A DNA stretch of 38,361 bases from a virus. The position numbers and the translations under genes were made by a program. The stretch covers positions 1 through 38,361 of IMG/VR virus record IMGVR_UViG_3300027902_000329; one strand, given 5' to 3'. Within the stretch, counting starts at the first letter, position 1; the number at the start of each line of letters is the position of its first letter. The notes beneath the pieces were generated by a model that saw only the letters and a program-made list of their open reading frames with translations, had not been told where the DNA came from and searched no databases. Shown piece after piece: positions 2,162 through 25,886 of the stretch.

Positions 2162-2205
2162 TATAATTATATCAAATTTAGTTAATTTTTTGGATACGGA
2201 ATTAA

Positions 2206-2242
2206 TTTTATGCTTTGAATTCCTATCAGAATCCTTTAATAT
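2206..2242 (+). promoter_or_regulatory. Phage promoter, copy A
   Basis: TTTTATGCTTTGA, then 18 bases, then TAATAT. This is the weakest of four copies of the same promoter; the others are at 8437, 19393 and 35473. Transcription should begin near 2249 and read the small terminase gene. The conserved block reaches upstream of the usual -35 hexamer, so it may be read by a phage sigma factor or an activator. Confidence 0.65.
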
Positions 2243-2270
2243 AAGAAGTATGCCAGACAGGATACCGTAT

Positions 2271-3017
2271 ATGAATAAGAAGAGAGGCAGGCCGGTAGGC
2301 AGTAAGAATAGTCCGGGTCATTGTGCAGGCAGGCCTAGTAATGGGAATGGCAGGAAGCCTGTAATGATTCAGGAGTCGGAGAATAGACCCATTAGGATTG
2401 CTCAGCCTCCCCTGCCTAAGCAGGTATGCTGTCCGGTGCCTATACCTAGGCCGGTTGCTAAGCCTGTCCGTATCGCACAGACAGGTCCTCCTAAACCGTA
2501 CTTAGACACCACACTCCCATCTAATGGGAATGGGGAGAGGAAGCTGGTGCCGTCGATTCCTAATAGTATATCCAAGTCAGTAATACAGTCCCGGATGAAT
2601 GAAGAGTTGATCACTCCTGAGCAGATCATCAAAGAAGTAACGAAGATTGCTATCAGCGATATCCGTAGGCTCCCCGGTTGCCCTAAGGGGATTCCGGATG
2701 ATATAGCGGCGGCGGTAGCATCTTTTGAGATCACCAAGACTACAACTAAGGATGGAGCGGTGATAGAGCGGACTCGATACAATTTATGGAGCAAGTCATC
2801 TGCTCATGATCAGCTTATGAAATGGGCTGGGTTGTATTCCAAGGACAATTCCCAGTCCAAGCCTGAAGTTAATATTCAGCAGAATATCCAGGTGAATCAA
2901 GTTGACCTTAAAGACTTTTCTAAGGAAGAGCTTTTGGCGCTGTATAAGTTGGGAGTGTTGAAGAATCAGAATAATGAGGAACTGCTACTCCTACCAGAAA
3001 ATAGTTCTTGTCGTTAA
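2271..3017 (+). CDS. terS: Terminase small subunit
   Basis: A 248-residue protein that recognises phage DNA for packaging. The N-terminus has AT-hook-like GRP motifs (KKRGRPVGSKN, AGRPSNGNG). The family region is near the middle: ITPEQIIKEVTKIAISDIRR, then PDDIAAAVASFEI, then RYNLWSKSSAHDQLMKWAGL, the order known from phage terminase small subunits. The C-terminal part probably contacts the large subunit. The ATG at 2271 has AGGA eight bases before it; another ATG at 2250 lies almost at the predicted transcript start and would be leaderless. Unusually, the large subunit gene lies 3.7 kb downstream. Confidence 0.82.
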   Translation: MNKKRGRPVGSKNSPGHCAGRPSNGNGRKPVMIQESENRPIRIAQPPLPKQVCCPVPIPRPVAKPVRIAQTGPPKPYLDTTLPSNGNGERKLVPSIPNSISKSVIQSRMNEELITPEQIIKEVTKIAISDIRRLPGCPKGIPDDIAAAVASFEITKTTTKDGAVIERTRYNLWSKSSAHDQLMKWAGLYSKDNSQSKPEVNIQQNIQVNQVDLKDFSKEELLALYKLGVLKNQNNEELLLLPENSSCR

Positions 3018-3036
3018 GTCGTTTTCGTCCTATAAT
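3008..3036 (+). promoter_or_regulatory. Sigma70-type promoter of a noncoding RNA
   Basis: TTGTCG at 3008-3013, a 17-base spacer and a perfect TATAAT at 3031-3036. The -35 box overlaps the end of the small terminase gene, so the promoter serves what follows, which has no convincing gene. The start point would be near 3043. Confidence 0.65.
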
Positions 3037-3042
3037 ATAAGT

Positions 3043-3528
3043 AGCAGGTGGGAGCCGACCCGGCCGGCGATAGGACCACCAAAATTGATGCCCGGGGTTA
3101 TCGTTTCATCGTTGCAGTATAATGTAGTTTGCCTCGTGGGGCCATTAGCGCCGACTATTGTGTCTGGCCCGTCGGCCCCGCCAGGCTGGTGGAGGGCTGC
3201 TGATTGCCGAGGAAGGAAGATTACTCGGCCCGTTGCGGCCCCTCTCGGACCCGCCGCCGAGGAAAGTACGGCGGGTGGTGCTGGTGTGGTGCCTGATGGC
3301 ACTGCCGGTCGGCTGTGTCTACCGAGGTCGTTAGGCCAATGAGTCGCCAAGCGTCTCTGAGGTTTCCGTAGTTCATCTTCAAGGAGGAACTATATTGAGT
3401 AATGCCTACTGCAGAACGTGGCGATGTGCCCAAGGCCCAGGTGGTTGGCCCCTGGTGAGCTTTCTGGCAAAGGAATCCTCCTGATCAAAGGCCCGCCGGG
3501 AGCCTATTGAAATCCCGGCCTGATTTTT
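3043..3528 (+). ncRNA. Candidate large structured noncoding RNA
   Basis: About 485 nt between a good promoter and an intrinsic terminator, with no supported protein. It is much more GC-rich than its surroundings and full of hairpins: 3047-3051 pairs with 3076-3080 right at the 5' end; CCGAG with CTCGG around a 12-nt loop near 3210-3230; 3250-3256 with 3269-3275 (7 perfect GC pairs); GTGCC with GGCAC around a TGAT loop near 3291-3304; CCAGG with CCTGG near 3439-3457. Size, phage context and closeness to a tmRNA recall the ornate large RNAs (ROOL, GOLLD), but I do not recognise the sequence as either. A 29-codon TTG ORF at about 3395 behind AAGGAGG is possible. Confidence 0.5.
3495..3528 (+). 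terminator. Intrinsic terminator of the noncoding RNA
   Basis: GCCGGGA (3495-3501) pairs perfectly with TCCCGGC (3513-3519) around an 11-nt loop; a TTTTT run follows at 3524-3528. It ends the structured transcript just before the tmRNA repeat. Confidence 0.7.
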
Positions 3529-3574
3529 CTGGTCGCAGCAGCTATAGAAGTCAACCAGGAGCACCTAAAATAGG
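3529..3574 (+). repeat. Direct repeat R1, upstream of the tmRNA
   Basis: Begins CTGGTCGCAGC and carries TATAGAA, TCAACCAG and CACCTAA blocks. It is nearly the same (about 38 of 45 bases) as R2 at 3950-3995. CTGGT and ACCAG inside the copy can pair as a hairpin. It ends exactly at the 5' end of the tmRNA. Confidence 0.75.
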
Positions 3575-3925
3575 GGGTGTAATGGTTTCGACGGTGGCGG
3601 GAAATCATAGTTGCATTCCGGGGCCAACTTCCGTTAATGTTGGAAACGGCACAATTGCCGACTCTTACCTCCAACTGAAAGCGGCTTAAGGCCCGCTTTT
3701 CGTTCGCTCTGACGATTCTAGATAATCAGATGCGGGCGTCAAACCCAATCTAGATAGGAGATATGATGTTGCTGCATCGTCATTATCCGAAACTTAGCGC
3801 AGCTGGCCTGGCAGGAGTTGATCTCAGAGCAATATTGACAGGCAAGACAGAGTCTGAGATTATGAATGTAGACGCTATGGCAGAATGTTCATCGGACCCG
3901 GGTTCGACTCCCGGCACCTCCACCA
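3573..3925 (+). ncRNA. ssrA: Transfer-messenger RNA (tmRNA)
   Basis: A 353-nt one-piece tmRNA that rescues stalled ribosomes and tags the broken protein. The 5' end GGGGGTG pairs with CACCTCC (3915-3921) as a 7-bp acceptor stem with one G-U pair, followed by an encoded ACCA. GGTTTCGACGG near the 5' end and the T arm (CCGGG, TTCGACT, CCCGG) near the 3' end are diagnostic. The tag frame ends at TAA 3687-3689 and reads VNVGNGTIADSYLQLKAA, codons 3633-3686; the exact resume codon may be GTT 3633 or a neighbour. The LKAA end resembles the LAA-type degron read by host proteases. Two copies of a direct repeat bracket the gene. Confidence 0.95.
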
Positions 3926-3949: not shown

Positions 3950-3995
3950 CTGGTCGCAGCATATATAGAACTCAACCAGAACCACCTAATTTAAG
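3950..3995 (+). repeat. Direct repeat R2, downstream of the tmRNA
   Basis: Second copy of the 46-nt repeat, 421 bases after R1. The CTGGT/ACCAG pairing is kept; differences lie mainly between the conserved blocks. It begins 24 bases after the tmRNA 3' end. The DNA from here to 4065 has no other gene. Confidence 0.75.
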
Positions 3996-5462: not shown

Positions 5463-5903
5463 GTGATCAAGGCGATTATATGCTTCTTGCTGTTAATCTC
5501 TTATCCAGTGGTTGCCGCCAGCCCTACTCCTACAAAGGAAGTGACTATGCAATCCTGGCTCCGTCATGTCAAAACCTGCTCAGACAAGTATGGGATCGAC
5601 CCAAACTTTGCCTTGGCAGTGGCAGAGACGGAATCTTCTAATAAGGAGGTACGATTCAGATTTGGCAAAATGGGAAAAGGAACGTACTACGGTCCGTTCG
5701 GTATCCATAAATGCTTTCTCTCCAAATGGGCGATCAATGATCCTTATGTTAACACCGAAGTTGGGATACGAGCCTTGGCCAGATATGGTGATCAGAAGCG
5801 GAGTCTCAAGAAGTACAATGCCTCCTTCAATGAAGGCTACTGGAAGAGGATAAAGGAATTGGAACGCCAGAACCGGTTAGCGAAGGTGTTTAAGGAGAGA
5901 TAA
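5463..5903 (+). CDS. Secreted lytic transglycosylase-like muramidase
   Basis: A 146-residue protein with a signal peptide (residues 1-19, ending VVAAS) and a lysozyme-like SLT domain. The catalytic Glu is E55 in LAVAETESSN; YGPFGIH near residues 75-81 corresponds to the GLMQ-type motif, and Tyr residues near the end line the groove. It should cleave peptidoglycan glycan strands, either for local cell-wall opening or for lysis. The start is a GTG with a hairpin instead of a clear ribosome site. Placement between the two terminase genes is unusual. Confidence 0.8.
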   Translation: MIKAIICFLLLISYPVVAASPTPTKEVTMQSWLRHVKTCSDKYGIDPNFALAVAETESSNKEVRFRFGKMGKGTYYGPFGIHKCFLSKWAINDPYVNTEVGIRALARYGDQKRSLKKYNASFNEGYWKRIKELERQNRLAKVFKER

Positions 5904-5904
5904 C

Positions 5905-6711
5905 TTGCTGGTTTTTGACGGGCAGAACGTGGCGTATAGAGAGTGTTTTAGTAAAGCTGGCCTCTCTCACAACGGCAAGCCAACAGGAGCCATCTTAGGA
6001 TTCCTGAGGCAGCTCAGATCTCTCCTGGAACTGTATCCCGGCGAGGTTGCAATTTGCTGGGATTCCAGGCGATCGCTTCGTAGGGAGTTTCACTCGGAGT
6101 ATAAGGCGAATCGTAGGAACGGCGGAGAAGTTCCTGACCAGATCAAAGACGTATTCACTCAGATCGAAAACCTCCGTGATCACATCCTGCCTCGCATCGG
6201 CTACAGAAATAATTTCCTTCAGGATGGCTACGAAGCAGATGACTTAGTGGCGGTCCTATGCCAGAGGCAGATAGACACCTATAGAGTCATCATTTCCTCT
6301 GATAACGACCTGTTCCAGTGCTTGGGCCCGTCCGTCTTTATGCATAATGTTTCAACCAAGAAGAAATACACCTACAAAGATTTCCAGGAAGAATACGGAA
6401 TAACCCCCAGGCAATGGCCGGATGTTAAAGCCATAGCAGGGGACGCAGGGGATAATGTCATAGGTGTGTCTGGAGTCGGGCCTAAGACGGCTGTCAAGTA
6501 CCTGAGCCCGCCTGACGCTAAAGGAAAAGGAGTATCGGATAAAGTATCGCGGAAGATCTTGGAACACCGCGAAATCATCGTTAGGAACACTCGCCTTGTC
6601 AAGTTGCCCTGGCCAGGTTGTGCACCCGGAGAGATGAAGAAGTCGCAGTTCAACGAACGGGAATACATCCGGGTCTGTCACGAGTATGGACTCAATAGTT
6701 TGCTTAGATGA
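5905..6711 (+). CDS. 5'-3' exonuclease (FEN / PolI N-terminal type)
   Basis: A 268-residue protein with a TTG start behind AAGGAGAG. It has the FEN family residues in order: FDGQN at 4-8, the arch region (DSRRSLRREFHSEYKANR), the metal-binding GYEADDLVAVL, SSDNDLFQCL, and the helix-hairpin-helix GDAGDNVIGVSGVGPKTA. Length fits a stand-alone exonuclease such as T5 D15 or T4 RNase H. It probably trims 5' flaps or degrades DNA during replication or recombination. The end overlaps the large terminase start by 4 nt. Confidence 0.93.
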   Translation: MLVFDGQNVAYRECFSKAGLSHNGKPTGAILGFLRQLRSLLELYPGEVAICWDSRRSLRREFHSEYKANRRNGGEVPDQIKDVFTQIENLRDHILPRIGYRNNFLQDGYEADDLVAVLCQRQIDTYRVIISSDNDLFQCLGPSVFMHNVSTKKKYTYKDFQEEYGITPRQWPDVKAIAGDAGDNVIGVSGVGPKTAVKYLSPPDAKGKGVSDKVSRKILEHREIIVRNTRLVKLPWPGCAPGEMKKSQFNEREYIRVCHEYGLNSLLR

Positions 6712-8240
6712 CGCCTGATAAACAACTTCGTGCAGTAGAGGCTGTACAATATCCCACCTCGATAATCCGTGAGTTATGCAACCGGGAATTCTATTTCTTC
6801 CTCCAACATTTCTGGCCAGCCATCTGCCATGATGAGTTCCGTCCCAACTGGCACATCGAATATCTCTGTAATGTTCTCCAAAAGAAAGCCGAACGAGTAG
6901 CGGCTCGCCTGCCTAACGACTTCGATCTGGTGATTAACGTACCACCGGGTACTACGAAGACGATGACTTGTAACGTAATGTTTCCCGTCTGGTGTTGGAC
7001 GAAGTGGTACTGGATGCGCTTCCTGACATTTGGTTATAATCAGGAACTTTCCTTAGAAGCAGCAGACAACTCTAGAAACCTGCTTGTCTCTCAGATGTTC
7101 AGAGAAACCTATCCTGAATTGGTAATGAAACGAGGTAAGGAAGGGGTAACAAATTTCAGGATCGTCAAAGTTGAAGAAGACGGCACTATCAGATTAGGCG
7201 GCGGCCGGTTTAGTTCTTCTATATCAGGCACAGGTACTGGTTTTCATGGTGACATCATTATCATTGACGATCCACTGAATCCGAAACAGGCCGCCAGTAC
7301 GGTGGAATTGAAGAACAGTATTGACTGGCTTGACCAGACTCTTCCTACACGTAAGACAAACAAAGAAGTCACACCTACGATCCTGATCATGCAGCGGCTA
7401 CATGAAGGAGATCCGTCTGGTCACTTACTAGCGAAGAAGAAAACCAAAGTCAAACATATCTGCCTACCTGGTGAAATCAATACCTCTCAGTATGCTGATA
7501 AGGTGAGGCCAATAGAACTTGTAAAGAATTATGTAGACGGCTTGCTAGATCCTATTCGACTTCCCCAATCCGTCCTATCCGGAATGGAGGAGAGCTTAGG
7601 TCAGTATGGCTACGCGGCTCAGTTTGGTCAATCACCCACTCCCCCCGCAGGTGGTATGTTTAAGATTGACAGATTTGTCATGATAGAGTCAATGGTACCG
7701 CTTGTTAACGTGGTGCAAACAATTCGATCGTGGGATAAGGCTGGGACAGATGTAACAAAGGGTCAAGGAGAAAAAGGGAAGAACAAAGAGCCAGCCTACA
7801 CCGTTGGTACAAAGATACACAAACTGGCTAATGGCAAGTATCTGATATCGGATGTGATCAGAGGCAGATGGTCAGCAGAGGTTAGAGAACAAATCATCAG
7901 ATCAACTGCTGAGGCAGACGGCTCCAGCGTAGAGATTGTGCACGAGCAAGAACCAGGATCGGGAGGTAAGGATAGCGCAGAGGCCACCACTCGTAATCTG
8001 GCTGGTTTCTCTGTTAGGGCAGAAAGGCCCATTGGGAATAAGATAGCCAGGGCAGATACTTTGAGTGTACAGGTAAACTCTGGTAATGTCCTGTTACTGA
8101 AAGGACCTTGGAACTATGAATTCATTGAAGAATTCAGATATTTCCCGTTCAGCAAATTCATGGACCAAGTAGACTCTGCCTCGATGGGGTTTACTAAGTT
8201 GGCACAGAAGAAACAAGTATTGGTACTTGGGAGAACCTAA
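6708..8240 (+). CDS. terL: Terminase large subunit
   Basis: A 510-residue packaging motor and nuclease. The N-terminal ATPase has a Walker A-like NVPPGTTKT (77-85) and a Walker B IIIIDDP (183-189). The C-terminal nuclease half has RSWDKAGT (D343 a likely metal ligand) and later acidic residues, and the overall plan is that of large terminases with an RNase H-like nuclease. Its small partner is encoded 3.7 kb upstream. Confidence 0.95.
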   Translation: MTPDKQLRAVEAVQYPTSIIRELCNREFYFFLQHFWPAICHDEFRPNWHIEYLCNVLQKKAERVAARLPNDFDLVINVPPGTTKTMTCNVMFPVWCWTKWYWMRFLTFGYNQELSLEAADNSRNLLVSQMFRETYPELVMKRGKEGVTNFRIVKVEEDGTIRLGGGRFSSSISGTGTGFHGDIIIIDDPLNPKQAASTVELKNSIDWLDQTLPTRKTNKEVTPTILIMQRLHEGDPSGHLLAKKKTKVKHICLPGEINTSQYADKVRPIELVKNYVDGLLDPIRLPQSVLSGMEESLGQYGYAAQFGQSPTPPAGGMFKIDRFVMIESMVPLVNVVQTIRSWDKAGTDVTKGQGEKGKNKEPAYTVGTKIHKLANGKYLISDVIRGRWSAEVREQIIRSTAEADGSSVEIVHEQEPGSGGKDSAEATTRNLAGFSVRAERPIGNKIARADTLSVQVNSGNVLLLKGPWNYEFIEEFRYFPFSKFMDQVDSASMGFTKLAQKKQVLVLGRT

Positions 8241-8483: not shown

Positions 8484-8804
8484 ATGCTGTGCCACATCTG
8501 TAAACTTCCGGATAGGTGGGCAGAGTACCAAGTTAATGGCACCATTAGGGCCTGTCCTGAATGCAAAGCCAGGTTTGATAATGAGATCCTTTTAGTTTGT
8601 CAGAGGTGTAACTCTATGGCGTTCATTGTTAAGACACCAAAGAATATCGAACGCCTCCAGTATTTTATTAACGCCACCATCACTCACTTCTGGATGTCTA
8701 ACGTTATCGTACCCATGAATGGTTGTCCTCACTGCGTCACCTTTCATCAGTCCTTACTAGGAGAGCCTAGGAAAGTTGTTAAGGAGAGTTGCTGTCGCGG
8801 GTGA
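8484..8804 (+). CDS. Multi-zinc-ribbon protein
   Basis: A 106-residue protein with four Cys pairs: CHIC, CPEC, CQRC and CPHC, fitting two zinc-ribbon modules. There is no Shine-Dalgarno, and the predicted transcript start lies about four bases before the ATG, so it may be read leaderless. The end overlaps the next gene. It may bind nucleic acid or act as a small adaptor; no family recognised. Confidence 0.6.
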   Translation: MLCHICKLPDRWAEYQVNGTIRACPECKARFDNEILLVCQRCNSMAFIVKTPKNIERLQYFINATITHFWMSNVIVPMNGCPHCVTFHQSLLGEPRKVVKESCCRG

Positions 8805-9603
8805 AGTCAACTTTCATATTATTCCTGTATACGGTGGACAGGGCTCCGGCAATTTCGGTCATAGTGGAAGAGTTGGTGCCGTAGGTGGTAGCGGAGGTGG
8901 AGGCGGGGGTGTTTCTGGTAAAGAATTATCCTCTACAGATTTAGTTGAAAAGGTTTGGCCAGTTGCTAATGAGAGAATGGATCAATACAAAGCGAATCCA
9001 GTAGGCTCACTTTCTGGTCAAGATGTCATTCTGAAATCAATACAAGAAGAACAAGGTTACAATGGTTTGCCAAAAGTAGTAGATAAAGAAACTCTCGATG
9101 GAATGATAAGTCGAGGTGAAGTGTTAGAAATGCACCGCGGTTTTGGGACTTCTGAGCAGGTTGAACAATTTAGAAGCGGAGAATTGTTTACAGGGCAAGG
9201 CGGCTATGGGAATGGAACCTATACTGCTTATGGTGAGAAAGGTTTAGATACAGCAAGATTTTATTCAGGAACTTCTCCGAGAGAAGAAGGAATGTTGCGC
9301 ATGGGGCTGAGATCAGATGCAAAAGTAATAGAATACAAAGACTTGAGAGATATGATTTCTAAAGGAACCGGCTTGAATGAAGAAAATCAAGCAGGAAAGC
9401 TTGGCAAGATAACAAAAGACCTTTATGATATGCATGATACTCCTGGAATTAGTAAAGAAAGTAGATTAGGTGCCGGGATGATTCATACTTCTTTAATGGA
9501 GCCAGGACGAGCTGCTGCTATTCTTGGTTATGATGCCATTCGTTCTACCCAAGATAAGTTTATGGTTATCTTGAACCGAACTAAGTTGGTGGTACAGAAA
9601 TGA
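8776..9603 (+). CDS. Linker-bearing ADP-ribosyltransferase-like effector
   Basis: A 275-residue protein with a TTG start. After VNFHIIPVY comes the GSGNFGH linker (residues 20-40) and a poly-Gly run. The rest resembles an R-S-E-type ADP-ribosyltransferase: MHRGFG (possible NAD-binding Arg), then GYGNGTYTAYGEKGLDTARFYSG, as in ART domains on phage head proteins. It may transfer ADP-ribose to a host protein on entry. It overlaps the next gene as ATGA. The cassette is AT-richer than the structural genes around it. The ART assignment is by motif; the catalytic Glu is not certain. Confidence 0.65.
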   Translation: MLRRVAVAGEVNFHIIPVYGGQGSGNFGHSGRVGAVGGSGGGGGGVSGKELSSTDLVEKVWPVANERMDQYKANPVGSLSGQDVILKSIQEEQGYNGLPKVVDKETLDGMISRGEVLEMHRGFGTSEQVEQFRSGELFTGQGGYGNGTYTAYGEKGLDTARFYSGTSPREEGMLRMGLRSDAKVIEYKDLRDMISKGTGLNEENQAGKLGKITKDLYDMHDTPGISKESRLGAGMIHTSLMEPGRAAAILGYDAIRSTQDKFMVILNRTKLVVQK

Positions 9604-12218
9604 ATGCCACTTGGAGCAAGAGAATAGCTAAGATTGTAAACACAGAATATTTCTCTTCTCTTCCTGTGTTAAAACAACTTTCATTTAGAGAGAAAGCGCA
9701 GAGCGTTGATGGATTAGGCGAGCTATCTCAAGAGTACAAAGATATTGTTTCCAAATCTAAAGTAGGCCCTGCTGTTCACTTCCACACCATTCTCCTCCAA
9801 GGAGGAGAAGGCAGTGGGAATTTTGGTCATGCTGGCATCCCGGGTCAAGTAGGAGGGTCTTCGAAGAGCGGAGGAGAAATTGATCCTTATGGACAAGCTA
9901 AGGAAGCTCTTGCTGGTTGGAACAAATCTACAATAATAATTGCGGGGGAAGAATGTTCTTACTATAGTAATCCCGATTTTAAATCTGATGGTGGCAAGTA
10001 TGATTTATTTCATGATATGGGTAAGGAGAATCTATCCAGTGTTTTGAAAGAAGGACTCGATGCTGATAAATCAAGACGTGGAGGATTATGGTTTGTCGAC
10101 AAAGGAATGATGAAGAAATTTGATAGTAATCCTGGTACAGGAACAGACTTGGGAATTCATGTAAGAATAGACAAATCTAATTATGATATTCAAAAATCTG
10201 AGCAGGGTGTTGAAGTTTATAACAATATTCCTTCAAGTAGTATCAAAGGTGTTATTTTATATGATGGAAGTCGTTCTCCCACGACCCAGAAAGAAGTCCA
10301 TTTCCATATTATTCCGGTTGTTTATGGTGGCTCTGGCAGTGGCAACTTCGGACATGCAGGAACTCCAGGACGCCTTGGCGGATCTGGTCCCGGAGGGAGT
10401 TCCCAGGAAGAGATGATTAAGTCTCTTGCCCAGAAGACTCAGGAAAAGTTTGGAATAGAAGTAGAGTATGGGGTTAGTGCTTCAGTGAAAGATGAACCTG
10501 GAATTGTAGGCAAAGTTGCAATTATCGACCAAGAAGTTAACAGATTATTTACTGAATTCCCAGAGATAGCAGAGATGTATAAGGAGATGGAAGCCCCTCT
10601 TTCTGTCAATCTAGATAAATTAGATAAAGGGACATATGGTGTCTGTTATAATGGCATCGGTTTTAGGGTTGATCCTACTCAAACTACCGCTACGGAAGAA
10701 GGAAGATGGAACACAGGCGGTTATCATGGTGGCGGTTATGGTGGCGATAGGCCGATTTCATATGTTTTTAGGCATGAATTCGCACATGATATTGAGGGTT
10801 TAGGATACAAAGCCTCTGATTGGGAGCTTAGTGGGCCCAGGATGGACAGGCTTATGGGTCTACAAGACAGAATAGATAGATCTTATGACAAAACCAAAGA
10901 TATTTCTGGCAAGGGGACAAGGTACGCTGCCTCGAACTCCTCTGAGATGTTTGCTGAATCGTTTGCAATTTATACATCACCTCGATATGGATCTGCTGGC
11001 AGATTGCCTAGTTCTATTGAAAAGACGGTAACTGGTTTAATAGATCCCAGTGGTAAGAAGGTGATTACTCATTCTGAGGTTCATCTTCATATTATTCGTA
11101 CTATGGGTGGTCAGGGAAGTGGGAATTTTGGCCATTCAGGCATTCCTGGTCAGGTGGGGGGTAGTGGTGGTGGAGGGAATACTACCGTTCCAGAAAGTTT
11201 AAAGAAAGAACTTCTTGCTGGAACCGAAGCAGATAGCAGAGAACATGCAGTTATTATTGATTCTGCTGGCAAAATAAGTACTCAAATATCTGGTTCAGAG
11301 GGTTCGACAGATTTCGGCTTTCATACTGATCTAGATAAAGCCGGTGCTGATTTACATATTGTTCATACTCATCCTCTTAACGAGACGCTGAGTAATAGAG
11401 ATATTGAGGTCTTGCAAAATAAAGGTGTTGGATCTGTCTCTGCAATTTTACCGAATGGTTCTGTTCATACAGCTACTGCTATGACACAAGATAGACAAGA
11501 AATTTACCGTCGGACAAATGAATTGTTTCTGAAATCCAAAACAGAGATCATAGATAAGCAGATTGAAGGCAAGATTTCTACAAAAAAAGAATATGATGCA
11601 TTATTAGTAAAGGCGCAAGAAACCAATCTTCGTCAGCTCGATAAAGAAAATCTGATACGATATACTGTTACTTCTTCCCCCACCACCCAGAAAGAAATCA
11701 ACTTCCATATAATCACAACTCAACAGTCCTCCTTACAAGACAACTTCAATCCGAACCACGATGACTGGGGCGGGTTTGCATCTGGGAGTGGTGGAGGAGG
11801 TACAACTACGGATCAACAGAAATTTGATAGTGCACAAAATTTCAATAAGGATTTTTCTAAGCGCGAGGATTTAGATGCGCAAGTGACTAACGAAGAGGTA
11901 CACAATGTTTTTGCAGATAAAGTGGTTTCCTCTATTCATGGAAATGTTTTAGAAAAAGGGAAGGCAATTGGTGAATTTGGATTTGATCTGAAAGTTGAAG
12001 GGGGAAAATTGTCTGCTGTTATGCAGCATTTATATAAAAACGAACATGTTGAATCAACTAAAGGGCTCATGTCCAAGATGTTAAATGATTACTTGACAGG
12101 AATAAAGTTACTTGGAGTTGAGAAGGTTGTGGTGGTGGGTGCAACTAAATTTTGGGATAAAATAACACCCAAACATCCAGAATTTAATTGGGTCGGAACA
12201 CAAGGAACAAAGCCATGA
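9600..12218 (+). CDS. Multi-cassette effector polyprotein (ART-like, zinc peptidase, JAMM, possible acyltransferase)
   Basis: An 872-residue protein made of linker-separated domains. Residues 1-60 are unknown. Linker (68-88). An ART-like domain (about 94-225: LFHDMGKENLSSVLKEGLDA). Linker (243-263). A zinc peptidase (about 270-480) with HEFAH at 392-396 and FAESF at 451-455, like the anthrax lethal factor catalytic domain. Linker (503-523). A JAMM/JAB domain with E548, H589-T-H591, S598 and D601, a deubiquitinase-type zinc site. A degenerate linker (714-734, DNFNPNHDDWGG). A last domain (740-872) faintly like a GNAT acyltransferase. Cassettes end in SPTTQ-type tails. Coupled to the portal gene by ATGA. 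Probably virion-associated, but this is inference. Confidence 0.6.
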   Translation: MNATWSKRIAKIVNTEYFSSLPVLKQLSFREKAQSVDGLGELSQEYKDIVSKSKVGPAVHFHTILLQGGEGSGNFGHAGIPGQVGGSSKSGGEIDPYGQAKEALAGWNKSTIIIAGEECSYYSNPDFKSDGGKYDLFHDMGKENLSSVLKEGLDADKSRRGGLWFVDKGMMKKFDSNPGTGTDLGIHVRIDKSNYDIQKSEQGVEVYNNIPSSSIKGVILYDGSRSPTTQKEVHFHIIPVVYGGSGSGNFGHAGTPGRLGGSGPGGSSQEEMIKSLAQKTQEKFGIEVEYGVSASVKDEPGIVGKVAIIDQEVNRLFTEFPEIAEMYKEMEAPLSVNLDKLDKGTYGVCYNGIGFRVDPTQTTATEEGRWNTGGYHGGGYGGDRPISYVFRHEFAHDIEGLGYKASDWELSGPRMDRLMGLQDRIDRSYDKTKDISGKGTRYAASNSSEMFAESFAIYTSPRYGSAGRLPSSIEKTVTGLIDPSGKKVITHSEVHLHIIRTMGGQGSGNFGHSGIPGQVGGSGGGGNTTVPESLKKELLAGTEADSREHAVIIDSAGKISTQISGSEGSTDFGFHTDLDKAGADLHIVHTHPLNETLSNRDIEVLQNKGVGSVSAILPNGSVHTATAMTQDRQEIYRRTNELFLKSKTEIIDKQIEGKISTKKEYDALLVKAQETNLRQLDKENLIRYTVTSSPTTQKEINFHIITTQQSSLQDNFNPNHDDWGGFASGSGGGGTTTDQQKFDSAQNFNKDFSKREDLDAQVTNEEVHNVFADKVVSSIHGNVLEKGKAIGEFGFDLKVEGGKLSAVMQHLYKNEHVESTKGLMSKMLNDYLTGIKLLGVEKVVVVGATKFWDKITPKHPEFNWVGTQGTKP

Positions 12219-14290
12219 CGACTAAAGCAAAGGTCACTCCGATAAACAGAGATTTCAGTGCCATCCAGGTGATGAGTACCATACTCTCCCGGGCTGTTCT
12301 TATGGGCCAATTAGGTATGTCCTATGATGGCGATCGAGATATGTACAACGCCCTCGGCTATCCCAAGGACATCACCTACTATCAATATCTCGCTGCATAC
12401 ACCCGGCAGGATATGGCGAGGGCGGTAATAGATCGTCCAGTTACAGCTACCTGGCAAGGAGGATTTAAAGTATTAGAATCTGATGATAAAGAAGAGACTC
12501 CTTTGGAAAAGGCCTGGGAGGAACTCAGTAAGAGATTAAAAATCCAAGCCAGGTTAATGCAATTAGACCGTTTGACGGGGCTTGGTTCTTACGGTGTGTT
12601 ACTTCTTGGCTTGTCAGATTGTAAAGATGTGAGTGATTTCTCTAAACCAGTTCAAGGTGTTAAACATGATCTTCTCTATCTGAAACCCTTTGGAGGAATG
12701 GTGCTTCAAGGAAGTGCTCAGATAAATTCTTATGTAACCGATCCAACTGATGAGCGTTATGGTAAACCACTCACATATCGGATTATGGTCAACAACTTGA
12801 GTATCGGAGTAAGTGAACTTCTTCAAGTGCACTATTCCAGAGTCATTCATGTAACAGACGGTCTCCTTGAATCCGAGATCGAGGGGATGCCTCGTCTCAT
12901 GTGCGTATGGAACCGGCTGATGGACTTGGAGAAAGTTATCGGTGGTTCTGGAGAAATGTTTTGGCGTGGTGCTCGACCTGGATATTCAGGAACAATAGAT
13001 AAGGAGTTTCAAGCAACTCCTGACGATTTAAGTGCGTTGGAAGATCAGATTAAGGAATATGAAAACAGCCTGCGGCGTTTTCTGGTTACTAAGGGAGTCG
13101 ATATTAAAGCATTGGGTTCACCAATGCACAGTCCGCAAGAGAATGTTGCTGTTTGCATTCAGATGATTTCTGCTGTCACCGGTATTCCCCAACGTATCCT
13201 GTCTGGTAGTGAACGAGGCCAGCTCGCATCAACTCAGGATCGAGATAACTGGTTTGATTTTGTTGACGGTCGTCGTCAGGAACTTGCCGAACCGGTTATT
13301 ATCAGACCATTTATTGACAGGCTTATTGAGCTTCAAATTTTGCCACCACCAGTTAAAGAGTATGCCATCCAGTGGCAGGATCTTCGGACTCCATCTGATA
13401 AAGATAAAGCGGATGTGGGAGCTACCAGATCGACGGCCATTAAGAACTATGCGTCGACACCAGGCGCCGAACTCGTGGTGCCCAAGAAATCGTTCTACCA
13501 AATCTGCCTCGGTCTGGATGATGATGAAGTCTCCTTGATCGAGGAAGAGCTTCAGGCTGCGTTGGGTTCTGAGACCAACGCCCCAGAAATGCAACCAGGA
13601 GGCGGTGAGGTTGTGCCTCCTGAGGTTCCTGCTGCAGTGCCGGGAGATAAAGGAGGAGAGGCACCCGCAAACCCTAAGCAGGTGACCACACAAGGTGGTC
13701 CTGGCTCAGGTAATTTCGGTCATAGTGGTGTTCCTGGCCAATGGGGTGGCAGCGGCAAAGGAGGTGGAAGTAAAGGGAATAGCAAAATTGAAGAGAAAAC
13801 CCCATCGAAAGAAATAACCTGGAAACCGTCAATGTCATTGGCTGAAGCTAAAGAATGGGCAAAAAATAGCGACTTTAAAGATCCATTGTTTCATGGGACT
13901 ACTGCGGGTGGAGTAGAAGGAATATCAAACAAAGGATTTGATGAAGCGACGCAGGTAAGTGCTTCTGGTGGAGCCATGTATGGAAATGGTTTCTATTTTA
14001 CATCTAATAAAGATTTTGCTACTCGATATGCAAAAGAAGGGACACAACCTCTTAGAATAATGGTTAACTGTGAAAAGGTTTGCAATTTTCCGGAATTTAC
14101 AAAATTAATGAATACACCTGAAAGTAAAATAAAAATGGAAGAAGCGTGGAAAGATCCGTTGAATAAGTATGGGAAAATAGTGACAGAAATTGTTAGAGGA
14201 GCTGGATATGACGCTCTTAATTTGAAATATGATCATGGACATCATGAGTTTATTGTTTATGACAAAACAAAAATAACGGTGATAAAATGA
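12215..14290 (+). CDS. Portal protein (DUF1073 type) with C-terminal ADP-ribosyltransferase
   Basis: A 691-residue protein. The ATG at 12215 overlaps the previous stop as ATGA and has AGGA upstream. Residues 1 to about 450 match the DUF1073 portal family (YYQYLAAYTRQDMARAVIDRP; VHYSRVIHVTDG; GIPQRILSGSERGQLASTQD). This ring forms the DNA gate of the capsid. A Pro/Glu-rich stretch leads to the GSGNFGH linker at 13694-13756. A typical ART fold of the H-Y type follows: LFHGTTAGGVEGI, then AMYGNGFYFTSNKDFATRYA, and HHEFIVYD near the end. Portal rings carry about 12 copies, so each virion would hold about 12 such domains. Confidence 0.85.
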   Translation: MTTKAKVTPINRDFSAIQVMSTILSRAVLMGQLGMSYDGDRDMYNALGYPKDITYYQYLAAYTRQDMARAVIDRPVTATWQGGFKVLESDDKEETPLEKAWEELSKRLKIQARLMQLDRLTGLGSYGVLLLGLSDCKDVSDFSKPVQGVKHDLLYLKPFGGMVLQGSAQINSYVTDPTDERYGKPLTYRIMVNNLSIGVSELLQVHYSRVIHVTDGLLESEIEGMPRLMCVWNRLMDLEKVIGGSGEMFWRGARPGYSGTIDKEFQATPDDLSALEDQIKEYENSLRRFLVTKGVDIKALGSPMHSPQENVAVCIQMISAVTGIPQRILSGSERGQLASTQDRDNWFDFVDGRRQELAEPVIIRPFIDRLIELQILPPPVKEYAIQWQDLRTPSDKDKADVGATRSTAIKNYASTPGAELVVPKKSFYQICLGLDDDEVSLIEEELQAALGSETNAPEMQPGGGEVVPPEVPAAVPGDKGGEAPANPKQVTTQGGPGSGNFGHSGVPGQWGGSGKGGGSKGNSKIEEKTPSKEITWKPSMSLAEAKEWAKNSDFKDPLFHGTTAGGVEGISNKGFDEATQVSASGGAMYGNGFYFTSNKDFATRYAKEGTQPLRIMVNCEKVCNFPEFTKLMNTPESKIKMEEAWKDPLNKYGKIVTEIVRGAGYDALNLKYDHGHHEFIVYDKTKITVIK
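13694..13756 (+). repeat. Linker repeat in the portal gene
   Basis: Encodes GGPGSGNFGHSGVPG followed by QWGGSG. This is the boundary between the portal fold and its C-terminal ART domain, and one of ten linker copies between 8.8 and 20.6 kb. Confidence 0.9.
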
Positions 14291-14475
14291 GCGAAACTAA
14301 AGTCTGTTGGATGTGTGCACATTATGATGTTAAAAGTTTTATAGGTTGTAAAGCCTTTCCTGGTGGAATACCACACCAGTTTGCTTCACGGGAGGCCATA
14401 CATGACAAAGTGGTTGAAGGACAGGTGGGTAATTTCGTTTGGGAAAGGAACCCTTCTCTCCCCGCAGGCAAATAA
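14287..14475 (+). CDS. Small Cys protein, paralogue of the 18718 gene's C-terminal part
   Basis: A 62-residue protein, ATGA-coupled to the portal gene. It has CWMCAHYD, then CKAFPGGIPHQF, and ends GNFVWERNPS. The same order (C..C.H, C.AFP.GI, H, I.YE) occurs at the C-terminal end of the 18718-19218 protein. This small Cys family is common in phage head operons; it may bind zinc. Function unknown. Confidence 0.6.
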   Translation: MSETKVCWMCAHYDVKSFIGCKAFPGGIPHQFASREAIHDKVVEGQVGNFVWERNPSLPAGK

Positions 14476-14591
14476 ATGGGCTCTTCCTACTCATTAAACA
14501 CCTCCGTCTGCTGCCTGAGCCCACGGCTGCAAAGAGTTTCTTATAAGGCGTATACCTTTTAAGGGGTCATCGGAAAAGGAGTAGTTTTAGA
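14476..14591 (+). promoter_or_regulatory. Structured leader, copy X
   Basis: Noncoding gap with TGGGCTC (14477-14483) able to pair with GAGCCCA (14517-14523), and an alternative CCGT/ACGG pair (14504-14507 with 14523-14526). The block CTGAGCCCACGGCTGC (14515-14530) recurs with one change at 34237-34252, in another gene gap. The two gaps also share CATTAAA upstream. It probably marks a shared RNA control or processing element. Confidence 0.4.
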
Positions 14592-17500
14592 GTGTCTGTC
14601 CCGGCTAAAAAACGCAGAATAAAGAACCCAGTTATCTACGGTGGAAGGGGCTCTGGCAATTTTGGTCATGCCGGACGGCCTGGCGCCGTAGGCGGATCAG
14701 GAGGGGGAACATTTACAGAGAAAGATGTTTTCATGGACAAACAATCTTCGCCTAGAATTACAGCAGGACATTTAAGAAGTTTTGTTCCTAGTATAGAAAG
14801 GGCAGACTTCAGAGAAGATAGAGAAGTAGGTCAGATAGTCTACTCGGAATTGTCAAGGTTATCAAAAGATTATAATCTACCTAATGGAGAGATCCCCTTA
14901 AAAGAAATAAAGACGACTCGAGAGATTCAAGGCTTTCCAAACTGTGACGGTTTGTATTCTGGGCTTAAAAACCATACTGAAGGGAGAATACAATTAATCG
15001 TTGGGCTTCCAAAAGAAGATACGAAATTACAATTTGGTAATTATACAGTAACTGATTCTGTTGCGGAAATCTTTAGACATGAGTTAGGGCATTCAGTTTG
15101 GTATAACTCGGGACAGAATAGAAGAAATGATTGGGAGGGTATTTATAAGAGCCAACAGAGGTCTTGGTGGTCAACCAACATTAGTTTTTATTCTTCCGAT
15201 AATCATCGAAAAGCCTTTGCAGAATCGTTTGCGGCTTATACTCATCGAGATTACGGTAAGTCACCACAAGAACGTTTACCACGAAATGTAGAATCTTATT
15301 TTGAAAAGAATTACAAAAAATCCCCTCTCACCCAATCCTCTACCTCAACCCTCAAACAAGTTCAGTCAATTAATATCTACGCACAAATAGCGCGCGTGGA
15401 TCCAACGAAAACATTAGTTCTTAGAAATAACTTTGCCGCTCAGATGGCTGCTCGCTTTAGAAAACTCAAAGCCATCATACAAAAAGCAGTTGTAGACGAC
15501 GATTGCTTTGGAATCGCCAAGCCTGAATCACAAGGCAAGAGGATTGTGGTGCAAGGCGGCGAAGGAAGTGACAATTTTGGTCATGCCGGACGGCCTGGCG
15601 CCGTAGGCGGATCAGGAGGGGGAGAATTAGAAGACAGAGCGAAATCAGTAATACCTTCTTTAGCTTCTTTTGTAGGTCCAGAAGAATTAAAATCTAAAAT
15701 AGTTTCTGATTTAGAAAGAATGAATGAAGAACTTCCTGGAGTTAAAAGTATTTTGCAACAAGGAATTGACCAGAATCGTTATCCTTTAAAATTGATAGAT
15801 TTATCAGTAGATCTTTCAAAGAAAGGAGCTTCGGGTTCTTATCACGAGATGGGAGGAATAAAACTAGGAGAAAAAGTTAAAGTTAGTGATACAGAATATC
15901 CATTAGTGGGAACAATATTTACTCTTTCTGGCGATCATGGTGTTGCTGTTTTTCGTCATGAATTAGGTCATTCTGTTTATGATAACTTGACTGGAAACCA
16001 GAAAAAATCTTGGGAAGATTGTCATACTAACAGAGATCTTAGTAGAGTGAGTCTTTATGCTACTTCAAATGAACATGAAGGGTTTGCGGAAGCGTTTTCT
16101 GCTTATACTCACCCTAACTATGGAAAGGGTAAAGGGGCTTCCCTACCACAAGGGATTGTAGGATTCTTTGATAAACATCTTAGAAAATCTCCCACTGCAC
16201 AAACTGTTTACGGTGGGTCTCTCACCACCCAAGCCGATCTGTCTACCCGGGGCGGCAGAGCGTTTGACTTTCCCACTTCACAGGAGAAATCAGCAGCCTT
16301 CCTGGAGTGGCTCCGGACCCAGGAGCAAGCAGGCATCTTAGAAACAGTAAGAATTCCCCAGGTTGGTACTGGTATAGACTCGGCATGGACTGACACCTTC
16401 ATAAAGGATTCGTACCAGAGGGGCGTTCAGAGGGCCAGAGATGAGCTGCTCCGTGGCGGTTATGCTGTTCCCTCTATGGAGGTTACAGGTGGGATATCCG
16501 CGAGCATGATGCAGCCGTTCCACATCGACAGGTTGGGGGTGGCGTACTCCAGAGCGTTCGATGGACTCAAAGGCATAACATCTGCCATGGACACCCAAAT
16601 TTCCCATGTCCTTACCAAGGGCTTGGCAGATGGTGATGGACAGGCGACGATTGCCAAGAAACTTCTGGCCACCATTGACGGTAACAATGCTGGTACGTTG
16701 GGAATAACAGATTCTTTAGGTAGATTCATTCCGGCGGAGAGACGGGCTGCTATGTTGGCCAGAACTGAAGTCATACGCGCGCACGCGATGGGGACATTGC
16801 AGGAGGCGAAGAACTGGGGAGCGGCAGGAGTATATGCTGAGGTAGAATTCATTAATGCCGGTTTCAATGTTTGTCCAGAGTGTACAAGTCTTCAGGGACA
16901 GATGTTTACAATAGAAGCCGCGATGGATGTAATCCCTGTCCACCCTTCATGCCGCTGCGCATGGCTAATAGTGCCTGTCAGCGGAAAAGGAGAAGTAATT
17001 GAAACCCTCCCAGGGCAGCCTATAGAAGAAGCTGGAGTTATCCCACAAGGTCCTGGAATAGTGCCGGTTGATGATTTTGTTCCAATGTCCGAATTGGAAG
17101 CAGGAACAACAAAGTCATGGATCGATGCTTTAGGTTATGAAGATTTACCAGTTCAAGACGACAACTATTACTATCATGCTTCATTTGCAAATAATTTGGT
17201 GAACATAGAGAAAGAAGGACTTGTTCCGGGTTTAAGCGAAACATTCAAAGGATATGGAACAGATAAACTTGTTTCGATCTCTCCTGACGTTCGCTCTCTT
17301 GAGTACTGGTCTCAAATGGGATTCTGGCAGAAATATGATCTGGCGAAAGCGGCGGGTGAAGATGTGGTTGAAAGACCTATTTTATTACGAGTAGGAAAGA
17401 ATGAAATCACAATATCTAGTAAACCGAGAATAGATGAAATATTAACTCCGAAAGTTCTTCCAGATAAACTGGAGATTTGGAATGGTAAGAATTGGGCTTC

Positions 17501-18686
17501 CCTCCCCGAAACCCCAGCCGCTGGTGTGGTGGAGTGGAAGCCGGCAAATAGTTTGGGTGAATTAAATAAAGGATTTGAAGAGATTGTAGGAATAAAACAG
17601 GTGTCGTTTGGTGATGGGTATTCTGAGATTGAAAGTTTGAAAATAGGGAATGAAACCTTGGAACATTTTAATAGTCTATTTGAAAAATATCCAATATTGA
17701 AAGAAACCTCTTCAGAAAATCCATTGCGTAAATTGTGGATGGGGAAAAGTATTTGGCTTGATGCCGAAGGCGTAATGGGAAGGTATTATAAAAATGATTT
17801 GGCTATTGATATAGGGGCAGAGCAGATAAAAGATCATACTTTAACTATTGGAAAATACGAAGTAGGCAAGGATTATTTTTCTACATTACGGCATGAATAT
17901 GCACATTTCTTTCATGGAAATGGTTTAACCTTACAACAAAGGGAAGATTGGAGTTGGCTTTATCGTACTAAAACTCAGTTAGATCATTCTTTTTCTGTTT
18001 CTATATATGGAGCAGCAAATGAAGGGGAATTGTTTGCTGAGTCATTTTCTGCCTATACTTCGCCTCTTTATAAACCTGGTATGTTACCCAAAGAAATTGA
18101 GTCATACTTCGATAAACTCCTAAAAGGGAAATCTCTCACCACCCAATCCAAACCTCAAGTCAATTATCATGTCATTACAACCCACGGTGGTCAAGGCTCC
18201 GGCAACTTCGGCCACGCCGGGAGACCGGGAGCAGTGGGAGGATCTGGTGGTGGAGGAGATACCATGGAATTTTTTCATGGCACTTCTTCCGAGTACTTAC
18301 AATCTATCCAAGAACATGGCATTATTCCTGGAGCTAAAGAAGGAGCAGATTCGTGGGCAGTTAAAAGAGGTTGGGCAAGTTGTGTTGGTGAAGTTGGCGA
18401 TCATAAAGTTTCTGTTTACATGACTCCTTCTCTTGATCATGCCAAGTCGTATGCTGAATTGGTTTCTAAGGAGTTAGTAGGTGGTCAAGCAGTTGTTGTA
18501 AAAGTTAATCTTCCAATCCATCTCCGCTTAAATTTAAGAACAGACGAGAAAGACAAAAGTGCAGTTAGATACGTCGGAAAAATCAAACCAGCATGGATTG
18601 AACCAATTCAATTATTACAGCAAGATGAAGTAGTAACTTTTTATGTGGTAGCGGTAGTTAAATCAGGTGCTCTTAAGTCATTATGA
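14592..18686 (+). CDS. MuF-type minor head protein carrying three zinc peptidases and two ART-like domains
   Basis: A 1364-residue protein; GTG start behind GGAG. In order: linker (17-37); peptidase 1 with HELGH 163-167 and FAESF from 209; the N-terminal helix of the head protein (about 268-308, RVDPTKTLVLRNNFAAQMAARFR); linker (322-342); peptidase 2 with HELGH 456-460 and FAEAF from 498; the MuF/gp7 core (about 540-796) with RTEVIRAHAMGTLQ and CPECTSLQGQMFT, then HPSCRCAW; an ART-like domain (about 855-980); peptidase 3 with HEYAH 1101-1105 and FAESF from 1148; linker (1199-1219); a final H-Y-type ART domain (FFHGTSSEYLQSIQEHG; VYMTPSLDHAKSYA). The core helps head assembly and enters the virion. 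The peptidases resemble anthrax lethal factor and are AT-richer than the core. Confidence 0.82.
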   Translation: MSVPAKKRRIKNPVIYGGRGSGNFGHAGRPGAVGGSGGGTFTEKDVFMDKQSSPRITAGHLRSFVPSIERADFREDREVGQIVYSELSRLSKDYNLPNGEIPLKEIKTTREIQGFPNCDGLYSGLKNHTEGRIQLIVGLPKEDTKLQFGNYTVTDSVAEIFRHELGHSVWYNSGQNRRNDWEGIYKSQQRSWWSTNISFYSSDNHRKAFAESFAAYTHRDYGKSPQERLPRNVESYFEKNYKKSPLTQSSTSTLKQVQSINIYAQIARVDPTKTLVLRNNFAAQMAARFRKLKAIIQKAVVDDDCFGIAKPESQGKRIVVQGGEGSDNFGHAGRPGAVGGSGGGELEDRAKSVIPSLASFVGPEELKSKIVSDLERMNEELPGVKSILQQGIDQNRYPLKLIDLSVDLSKKGASGSYHEMGGIKLGEKVKVSDTEYPLVGTIFTLSGDHGVAVFRHELGHSVYDNLTGNQKKSWEDCHTNRDLSRVSLYATSNEHEGFAEAFSAYTHPNYGKGKGASLPQGIVGFFDKHLRKSPTAQTVYGGSLTTQADLSTRGGRAFDFPTSQEKSAAFLEWLRTQEQAGILETVRIPQVGTGIDSAWTDTFIKDSYQRGVQRARDELLRGGYAVPSMEVTGGISASMMQPFHIDRLGVAYSRAFDGLKGITSAMDTQISHVLTKGLADGDGQATIAKKLLATIDGNNAGTLGITDSLGRFIPAERRAAMLARTEVIRAHAMGTLQEAKNWGAAGVYAEVEFINAGFNVCPECTSLQGQMFTIEAAMDVIPVHPSCRCAWLIVPVSGKGEVIETLPGQPIEEAGVIPQGPGIVPVDDFVPMSELEAGTTKSWIDALGYEDLPVQDDNYYYHASFANNLVNIEKEGLVPGLSETFKGYGTDKLVSISPDVRSLEYWSQMGFWQKYDLAKAAGEDVVERPILLRVGKNEITISSKPRIDEILTPKVLPDKLEIWNGKNWASLPETPAAGVVEWKPANSLGELNKGFEEIVGIKQVSFGDGYSEIESLKIGNETLEHFNSLFEKYPILKETSSENPLRKLWMGKSIWLDAEGVMGRYYKNDLAIDIGAEQIKDHTLTIGKYEVGKDYFSTLRHEYAHFFHGNGLTLQQREDWSWLYRTKTQLDHSFSVSIYGAANEGELFAESFSAYTSPLYKPGMLPKEIESYFDKLLKGKSLTTQSKPQVNYHVITTHGGQGSGNFGHAGRPGAVGGSGGGGDTMEFFHGTSSEYLQSIQEHGIIPGAKEGADSWAVKRGWASCVGEVGDHKVSVYMTPSLDHAKSYAELVSKELVGGQAVVVKVNLPIHLRLNLRTDEKDKSAVRYVGKIKPAWIEPIQLLQQDEVVTFYVVAVVKSGALKSL
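14657..14708 (+). repeat. 52-nt perfect DNA repeat, copy 1 (linker)
   Basis: The DNA coding for the first linker of the minor head gene is identical over 52 bases to 15572-15623. Other linkers code for similar residues with different codons, so this pair is a recent copy or gene-conversion event. Confidence 0.95.
15572..15623 (+). repeat. 52-nt perfect DNA repeat, copy 2 (linker)
   Basis: Second copy, 915 bases after the first. Just upstream this linker has one odd residue (GSDNFGH instead of GSGNFGH). Exchange between the copies would delete or duplicate peptidase 1 and the split head-protein helix. Confidence 0.95.
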
Positions 18687-19515: not shown

Positions 19516-19749
19516 GTGGTAGAGGTCAGTCCGGAGACATGTAAGTTTGAAGATTTGCTTTGCACCGAATGCTCGAGTCGGACTGTTTGTCAACCTCTGG
19601 ATCCGAAGTTTATTCAATCGACGGTATATGCAGCAGTAGGAAATGAACCAGTACCAGTTAAAACTAAAGTTCATCAACCCAAACATCGTAGAATGCCATC
19701 TTGGCTCAAAGATGCATCGGCATCAGTCAGACGGTCATACGGTTTTTGA
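19516..19749 (+). CDS. Small Cys protein
   Basis: A 77-residue protein. GTG 19516 has GGAG five bases before it; a GTG at 19492 lies inside the terminator and is rejected. Cys residues (CKFEDLLCTECSSRTVC) suggest a metal site; the C-terminus is basic (KHRRMPSWLKD, SVRRSYGF). It stands just before the protease/scaffold gene. Unknown function. Confidence 0.55.
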   Translation: MVEVSPETCKFEDLLCTECSSRTVCQPLDPKFIQSTVYAAVGNEPVPVKTKVHQPKHRRMPSWLKDASASVRRSYGF

Positions 19750-19760
19750 GGAGAGATAAG

Positions 19761-24402: not shown

Positions 24403-24840
24403 ATGGTCCAGACTCGGCCTCAGCAAGCCTTCGGTCTTCATCTGACTCTTGACGGATACGACTGCCCGAAAGAGAGGTTGATAAATCTTGATCTGGTTTA
24501 CAGGTTTTTAGATACCTGTCCAGATCTGATTTATATGACTAAGATTATGCCACCTTACGCCTTCAAGTATCAAGGCAAGGTGGCAGACGACTGGGGCCTT
24601 TCTGGATTTGTCCTCATAGCAGAATCTCACATTAGCGTTCATACTTTTCCCGATCGTAATTATCTAAGCCTCGATATCTTTTCTTGTAAAAAGTTTGATA
24701 TTGAAGAGACGATTTCCTACGCGGTAGATTTGTTCGGAATTGGGAGACACGAGAAGAATACTTTTGATCGTGGGCTTGAATTTCCTCGTGATCAAGAAGC
24801 AGTAACAGAATTTTTAGAAGGGCAGAGAAAAGAATTATGA
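24403..24840 (+). CDS. speD: S-adenosylmethionine decarboxylase
   Basis: A 145-residue protein of the short bacterial class (SpeH/SpeD type). AESHISVHTFPD (73-84) holds the self-cleavage site E74-S75 that yields the pyruvoyl group; H80 and C95 (FSCKK) match catalytic residues. It makes decarboxylated AdoMet, the aminopropyl donor for spermidine. Polyamines could neutralise packaged DNA or fit host physiology. GGAGG lies upstream of the ATG. First gene of the metabolic island. Confidence 0.88.
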   Translation: MVQTRPQQAFGLHLTLDGYDCPKERLINLDLVYRFLDTCPDLIYMTKIMPPYAFKYQGKVADDWGLSGFVLIAESHISVHTFPDRNYLSLDIFSCKKFDIEETISYAVDLFGIGRHEKNTFDRGLEFPRDQEAVTEFLEGQRKEL

Positions 24841-25523
24841 AATGGACGCCTCCGAACATGTGGGAGGGAGGTGATTGTTTTATAATTGGTGGAGGCGCAT
24901 CGATAGTGAGCCAGTTTGGTATTCCTCAAGAAGTAGTTGATCAAGTTAAAGTAAACCAAACTATGGCTCATCTTTACTCTCCATATATGAAGGAACTTCA
25001 TGATAAACATATCATTGGGGTCAACAACGCCTACATGTTAGGAGATTGGGTAGACTGTGTTTTCTTTGGTGATTGTGCCTGGTATCTTGTTCACCGTCAA
25101 AACTTAGCTAAATTTGCTGGTCTGAAAGTAACTTGCTGTCCACGATTTGCAGAAAAACCTGAGAGCAGATGTGAAGGAATCAAATATCTTGCCAAGGATG
25201 GTAGTCATAGATATGGTATAAGCGAGATTCCAACACGAGTAGCTTGGAATCATAACTCTGGCGCTGCTGCAATTAACTTAGCAGTTCACTTAGGAGTCAA
25301 GAAGATCAACCTGCTGGGATTCGATATGTGTCTGGACGAGAAGAATACGAGTCATTGGCATGGCTCTCATGGCAATAAAAATTGTCCACCATTCAAAAGA
25401 CACTTAAAGGGGTTCCCGGAGATTGCTGAGGACGCACAAAAAAGAGGAATTGAGATCCTCAACACCAGTAGTATAAGTAACATTGAGGAATTTCCTAAAG
25501 TCGAACTAAGGAGTTTGTTATGA
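24837..25523 (+). CDS. DUF115-like protein (phage norphogenetic family)
   Basis: A 228-residue protein, ATGA-coupled on both sides. DCFIIGGGASIVSQF at the N-terminus is a Rossmann-like loop; GVNNAYMLGDWVDCVFFGD and HNSGAAAINLAVHLGVKKINLLGFDM match the DUF115/MptE-like family often named norphogenetic protein in phages. Relatives include glycosyltransferase-like and pterin pyrophosphokinase-like enzymes; the substrate is unknown. Confidence 0.7.
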   Translation: MKWTPPNMWEGGDCFIIGGGASIVSQFGIPQEVVDQVKVNQTMAHLYSPYMKELHDKHIIGVNNAYMLGDWVDCVFFGDCAWYLVHRQNLAKFAGLKVTCCPRFAEKPESRCEGIKYLAKDGSHRYGISEIPTRVAWNHNSGAAAINLAVHLGVKKINLLGFDMCLDEKNTSHWHGSHGNKNCPPFKRHLKGFPEIAEDAQKRGIEILNTSSISNIEEFPKVELRSLL

Positions 25524-25885: not shown

Positions 25886-25886
25886 A

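Follow-up and report, generated by a model that had tools for sequence, protein, structure and literature searches.

A predicted structured-RNA gene of a new family beside a phage tmRNA, with a covarying homologue in a related phage

Comparison of two phage sequences identifies positions 3043–3528 (+ strand) of a tailed-phage contig as what we take to be a genuine structured-RNA gene, a new family of a known kind with two members at present. The window, meaning the whole stretch of DNA analyzed here, consists of a single virus record (38,361 bases) that encodes a large terminase (TerL, 6708–8240), a portal (12188–14290) and head proteins. Its rightward genes start with a 275-aa gene in the small-terminase position (2190–3017), the product of which had no match in Pfam or PHROG. 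This gene lies directly upstream of the RNA interval of ~485 nt, which is followed by a complete tmRNA gene (3573–3925, + strand; tag ADSYLQLKAA; found by ARAGORN, and by Rfam at 140.6 bits) and, 3 kb downstream, by TerL. The GC content is ~60% in 3043–3528 versus ~46% around it. A sequence-only reading of the window had placed an unknown large structured RNA here, and its account of location, size, lack of a gene, high GC and tmRNA neighbor was confirmed throughout; the identification itself is borne out by a covarying homologue, by the failure of every Rfam family to match at a cut-off as loose as E ≤ 10, and by the lack of a coding signal. On balance, the interval probably encodes, as a stand-alone gene of the phage, a large structured noncoding RNA that belongs to a new family and would act in trans.

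The comparison was made with a single independent homologue in a related phage, located on contig 3300025307_000067 (L003/L008), which was reached independently via the 275-aa protein and via TerL. The homologue occupies L003:5852–6276 (~425 nt versus ~485 nt in the window; the profile match spans 5847–6290), and its placement is that of the window RNA, preceded by the same 275-aa-type gene and followed by a tmRNA. Across the 6.2 kb that they share, a further contig, L004, has the same sequence as L003. Between the window and L003, TerL is 89% identical as a protein and only 44% identical at fourfold sites, which is near saturation. Since the RNA core (3177–3528) nevertheless retains blocks of up to 19/20 identity, including the segment CUUCAAGGAGGAACUANAUUGAGUAA and the terminator region, it is likely to be under purifying selection. 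The identity profile ranges from 2 to 12/20 before position 3177 and has many blocks of 15–19/20 after it, and over the first 140 nt the two phages lack any useful similarity in sequence. The first gene past the terminator also differs, being the tmRNA in the window versus an 81-aa ORF in L003 (6299–6544, past the RNA terminator and ahead of the tmRNA), so that there would be no fixed downstream gene to regulate.

Single-sequence stability alone is no proof of a structured RNA, which in our reading comes from the homologue comparison: folding of 3043–3528 gave a z-score of −2.1 against dinucleotide shuffles (2/100), and the reverse strand gave −1.8. The 5′ domain D1 of the window (3047–3182, + strand) is closed by a 12-bp helix, P1 (3047–3059/3171–3182), and the equivalent domain of L003 is closed by a 14-bp P1 (5854–5868/5943–5957) of wholly different sequence. 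In both phages, shuffled sequences give weaker closing duplexes (window, p = 0.0005; L003, p = 0.008). In the window, P1 has a pair probability of 0.997 when the domain is folded alone and is not part of the full-length minimum-energy fold, so the case for it is best if the domain forms co-transcriptionally. These values support the conservation of P1 as a predicted structure, without sequence conservation, right at the transcript start.

The core that follows on the same strand contains five helices with compensatory changes, each resting on one or two changes between two independent sequences. Hairpin P2 (3194–3200/3235–3241) is capped by P3 (3206–3211/3224–3229), the last pair of which is G-C in the window and C-G in L003. 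Next comes an H-type pseudoknot (3243–3274) with loops of 2, 0 and 6–7 nt and one compensatory change in each of its stems, S1 (3243–3248/3257–3262; UCUCGG/CCGAGG in the window versus UCUCGC/GCGAGG in L003) and S2 (3251–3256/3269–3274; CCGCCG/CGGCGG versus CCGCUG/CAGCGG). After an insertion of ~30 nt that is not in L003 and includes the hairpin GGUGCC/GGCACU (3277–3306), the 3′ domain (3312–3422) is formed by P8 (3312–3318/3416–3422; GCUGUGU/ACGUGGC) and the stacked P5′ (3319–3327/3363–3371; CUACcGAGG/UUUCcGUAG, with one C-C mismatch in the window). P8 and P5′ have one compensatory pair each, and the free-energy fold of the 3′ domain in L003 contains both. A 4–5 bp hairpin, P5 (3309–3325), taken from the first alignments, was superseded by the 9-position P5′, which covaries. 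The variable part of the alignment was adjusted by hand, and the MAFFT alignment A3, for which the 30-nt window insertion was removed beforehand, has the pseudoknot stems in register.

When shared stems were required to have 6 bp or more and to lie within 40 columns, three had a compensatory change versus 0.117 expected (p = 0.001, class-preserving column shuffles); with two sequences, the pair counter did not reach significance in its shuffle control. For the core, consensus folding gave a z-score of −3.7 against column shuffles, and the reverse strand gave a similar −4.0, which paired sequence would be expected to do, so folding does not fix the strand, which is instead indicated by the promoter, the terminator and the neighboring genes. 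With compensatory changes in P3, S1, S2, P5′ and P8, plus the P1 structure, the covarying secondary structure in phage homologues that marks phage structured noncoding RNAs in general is present here in two members, and the search for covarying homologues that the sequence-only reading had proposed has thereby found one. The parts of the predicted fold supported by comparison are the P1-closed 5′ domain, the core with P2/P3, the H-type pseudoknot, P5′ and P8, and the near-invariant segment CUUCAAGGAGGAACUANAUUGAGUAA.

This segment (3376–3401, + strand) is partly exposed and has a Shine-Dalgarno-like core, AAGGAGG, most of which can also enter a long-range helix, P7 (AGGAGGA 3382–3388/UCCUCCU 3476–3482), that crosses P8 as a pseudoknot. 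P7 is invariant in both phages and has no covariation because it never varies, as is also the case for the terminator stem. That stem belongs to a terminator-like hairpin followed by a U-run (3495–3528, + strand; GCCGGGA/UCCCGGC), which the sequence-only reading had called strong. The stem is indeed perfect and identical in L003, although its loop of 11 nt, the 4-nt gap to the U-run and its absence from the list of the terminator scanner weaken the term. At the other end, the promoter-like site TTGTCG-17-TATAAT (3008–3036, + strand; score 10/12) overlaps the stop codon of the 275-aa gene. “Strong promoter” is too strong a term for it, since it is one of four promoter-like sites found versus 4.1 expected by chance. 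The sequence TATAATATAAGT at the site is nevertheless identical in L003, as is the string ATAATATAAGT, following the T of the −10; the −35 of L003 is poor. The comparison thus supports an RNA that would begin just past a conserved TATAAT and end at a likewise conserved hairpin followed by a U-run.

A search of all 4227 Rfam families with both homologues, at the gathering threshold and at E ≤ 10, returned only tmRNA, a sub-threshold permuted tmRNA and chance matches. The permuted-tmRNA match (3311–3689; 18.9 versus 47 bits) overlaps the real tmRNA, and ARAGORN and Rfam searches for a tRNA-like domain and tag frame find the neighboring 3573–3925 only. Neither the window RNA nor the L003 homologue matched covariance models of ROOL, GOLLD, OLE, RNase P, group I/II introns or riboswitches, so the search that the sequence-only reading had called for leaves the sequence outside known families. 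The string GAGGAAAGU recalls a conserved region of RNase P; here it falls in pseudoknot stem S1 and the loop after it, L003 has GAGGAAGAGU instead, and the RNase P models gave no match. The resemblance to ROOL and GOLLD that had been suggested holds at the level of kind and fails at that of membership: the RNA appears to be large, pseudoknotted, phage-borne and beside an RNA of translation, and neither covariance model matches. GOLLD and ROOL are phage-borne and occur near tRNA islands, and ribosomes have been reported bound to GOLLD in pull-downs (PMC12286853). Like GOLLD, a large structured RNA of phages and prophages, the new RNA lies beside a tRNA-type gene and is conserved at its 3′ end and less so at its 5′ end (PMC12286853), which is a resemblance and no proof of kinship. 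It differs in size (~485 and 425 nt versus more than 800 nt for many GOLLDs). GOLLD forms an RNA-only homo-oligomeric nanocage. ROOL is likewise pseudoknotted and of comparable though larger size (659 nt in the solved ROOL), and differs in that no kissing-loop pair was identified in the new RNA; palindromes seen by eye in the 5′ domain of the window have no counterpart in L003. The adjacent tmRNA (RF00023) similarly has H-type pseudoknots and a short reading frame, and the new RNA differs from it in having no tRNA-like domain.

The family is rare in the data searched, and its absence elsewhere is not firm. Three exact-motif scans of viral contigs recovered the same contig pair only, with its shared sequence identical, and a covariance model (R1) run on 28 related virus records gave no further member. 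A scan of a genome collection gave four chance matches (Shine-Dalgarno strings, scores of at most 13 bits), a plasmid collection gave one chance match of 26 nt, and the INPHARED phages contained no homologue. Three contigs with the same upstream gene (L005, L006 and L007) and other phages with the same TerL family do not carry the RNA, which would therefore seem dispensable in the wider phage group.

In the principal alternative, which we consider possible but unlikely, the RNA would regulate the late operon in cis as a leader or attenuator, sensing a ligand, or the translation of a 29-codon leader ORF, and controlling the passage of polymerase past 3495–3528 into the tmRNA and packaging genes. 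The candidate ORF (3395–3484, + strand; 30 codons in L003) begins with UUG 7 nt after AAGGAGG. It is open in both phages, and the perfect Shine-Dalgarno, the spacing, the start and a stop just upstream of the hairpin are all kept, much as in attenuators and leader peptides of the trp or TnaC type. The UGA/UAA stop is 5–10 nt ahead of the hairpin, and a ribosome there would mask the 5′ arm of the hairpin and block termination, while P7 would keep the Shine-Dalgarno shut. The 3′ arm of the terminator, CCGGCCU, also has a possible pairing partner in a conserved (A/G)GGCUGG (3183–3189) in both phages (by alignment and alifold), and the RNA heads the stretch from the tmRNA to TerL. Against such a leader, the structured region of ~340 nt ahead of the ORF is unusually long, the gene right after the terminator differs between the two phages, and the frame has no coding constraint. 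Its 28 differences fall 13/7/8 on codon positions 1/2/3, versus 86/61/129 in a neighboring real gene (P = 0.04 for so few third-position changes), so the excess of third-position changes expected of a shared coding frame is not found. This pattern argues against selection on a peptide in the UUG frame and is compatible with a translated leader of indifferent sequence.

The same UUG-frame counts weigh against an mRNA in which a long, structured 5′ untranslated region would precede the coding sequence of either the 29–30 aa peptide or that of an overlapping AUG frame of 17–18 aa at 3402 (changes of 4/8/9 at codon positions 1/2/3, a small count), which we judge decidedly unlikely. Both frames are open in both phages, the sole gap within the ORF is of 3 nt, and strong Shine-Dalgarno sites are used elsewhere in the phage; yet the conserved parts are kept to the nucleotide, also before and after the ORF, and the peptides are otherwise very different. 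Other ORFs in 3043–3528, on either strand, are not shared, and protein coding of the interval was rejected. A packaging-type RNA working with the terminase, in a role like that of phi29 pRNA, is suggested by position, with a gene in the small-terminase position adjoining in both phages, 3 kb before TerL. We regard it as very improbable, because packaging in this group does not seem to need an RNA that is missing from L005–L007 and from other phages of the same TerL family; the upstream gene, moreover, has no Pfam or PHROG match. Functionless GC-rich intergenic sequence that folds by chance would fit the modest single-sequence z-score, and is contradicted by the homologue, which is conserved far beyond the fourfold background, has compensatory changes and keeps P1 as a structure, so that we regard chance folding as exceedingly improbable.

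For the stand-alone RNA, we propose transcription in the direction of the packaging genes and an action in trans, as RNA and not as a messenger. AAGGAGG, the perfect complement of the 16S rRNA 3′ tail in most bacteria, would be the segment likeliest to contact a partner, and from this complementarity comes the proposal that during infection the RNA may bind ribosomes or 30S subunits, next to the phage’s own tmRNA and perhaps alongside it. P7, which can tie down CUUCAAGGAGGAACUANAUUGAGUAA, would open or close the site. Ribosome binding is the weakest step, a speculative one to which we give a modest chance within the stand-alone-RNA explanation, and a translated leader would be just as likely to have a Shine-Dalgarno-like segment. 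More ambitious still, and in our estimation unlikely, is a new ornate class of phage RNA that has a pseudoknotted fold of its own and, jointly with the phage tmRNA, influences host translation by presenting a P7-gated Shine-Dalgarno-like segment to ribosomes, possibly as a multimer like GOLLD and ROOL. Known large structured phage RNAs are few, and ROOL and GOLLD have no settled function; another, unrelated family beside a tmRNA with an invariant ribosome-complementary segment would be a test case for the idea of such RNAs acting on translation. The RNA is small enough for probing, folding and purification and, with two members so far, is a well-defined lead, not yet a functional result.

Several further features of these contigs were observed. 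A 30-nt direct repeat, CTGGTCGCAGCA..TATAGAA.TCAACCAG, lies on both sides of the window tmRNA (3529–3559 and 3950–3980), and is not in L003 and has no further copy among the viral contigs searched. Comparison of the tmRNA itself with samples of two phyla gave no close counterpart, the match being essentially confined to the universal 3′ end. In the syntenic place, L005 and L006 (6488–6509) and L007 (1036–1057) retain precisely the final 22 nt of the tmRNA (TCGACTCCCGGCACCTCCACCA), with the rest missing; a decayed tmRNA and an attachment site are candidate readings. Downstream of its tmRNA, the window encodes a dual-specificity/tyrosine phosphatase (PF00782; 4553–5026). Proteins of the head/portal region (8776–18686 and 19701–22187) repeat the linker motif GGxGSGNFGHxGxPGxVGGSG many times, and these linkers connect metallopeptidase-like (HELGH) and ADP-ribosyltransferase-like segments to structural domains, as called by eye. 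Between the major head protein and connector genes lies a block of metabolic genes (24403–33813), comprising by Pfam an SAM decarboxylase (PF02675), an E1/transketolase-type dehydrogenase and a methyltransferase/glycosyltransferase, and by eye alcohol-dehydrogenase-like, short-chain-dehydrogenase-like and sugar-kinase (HldE-like) genes.
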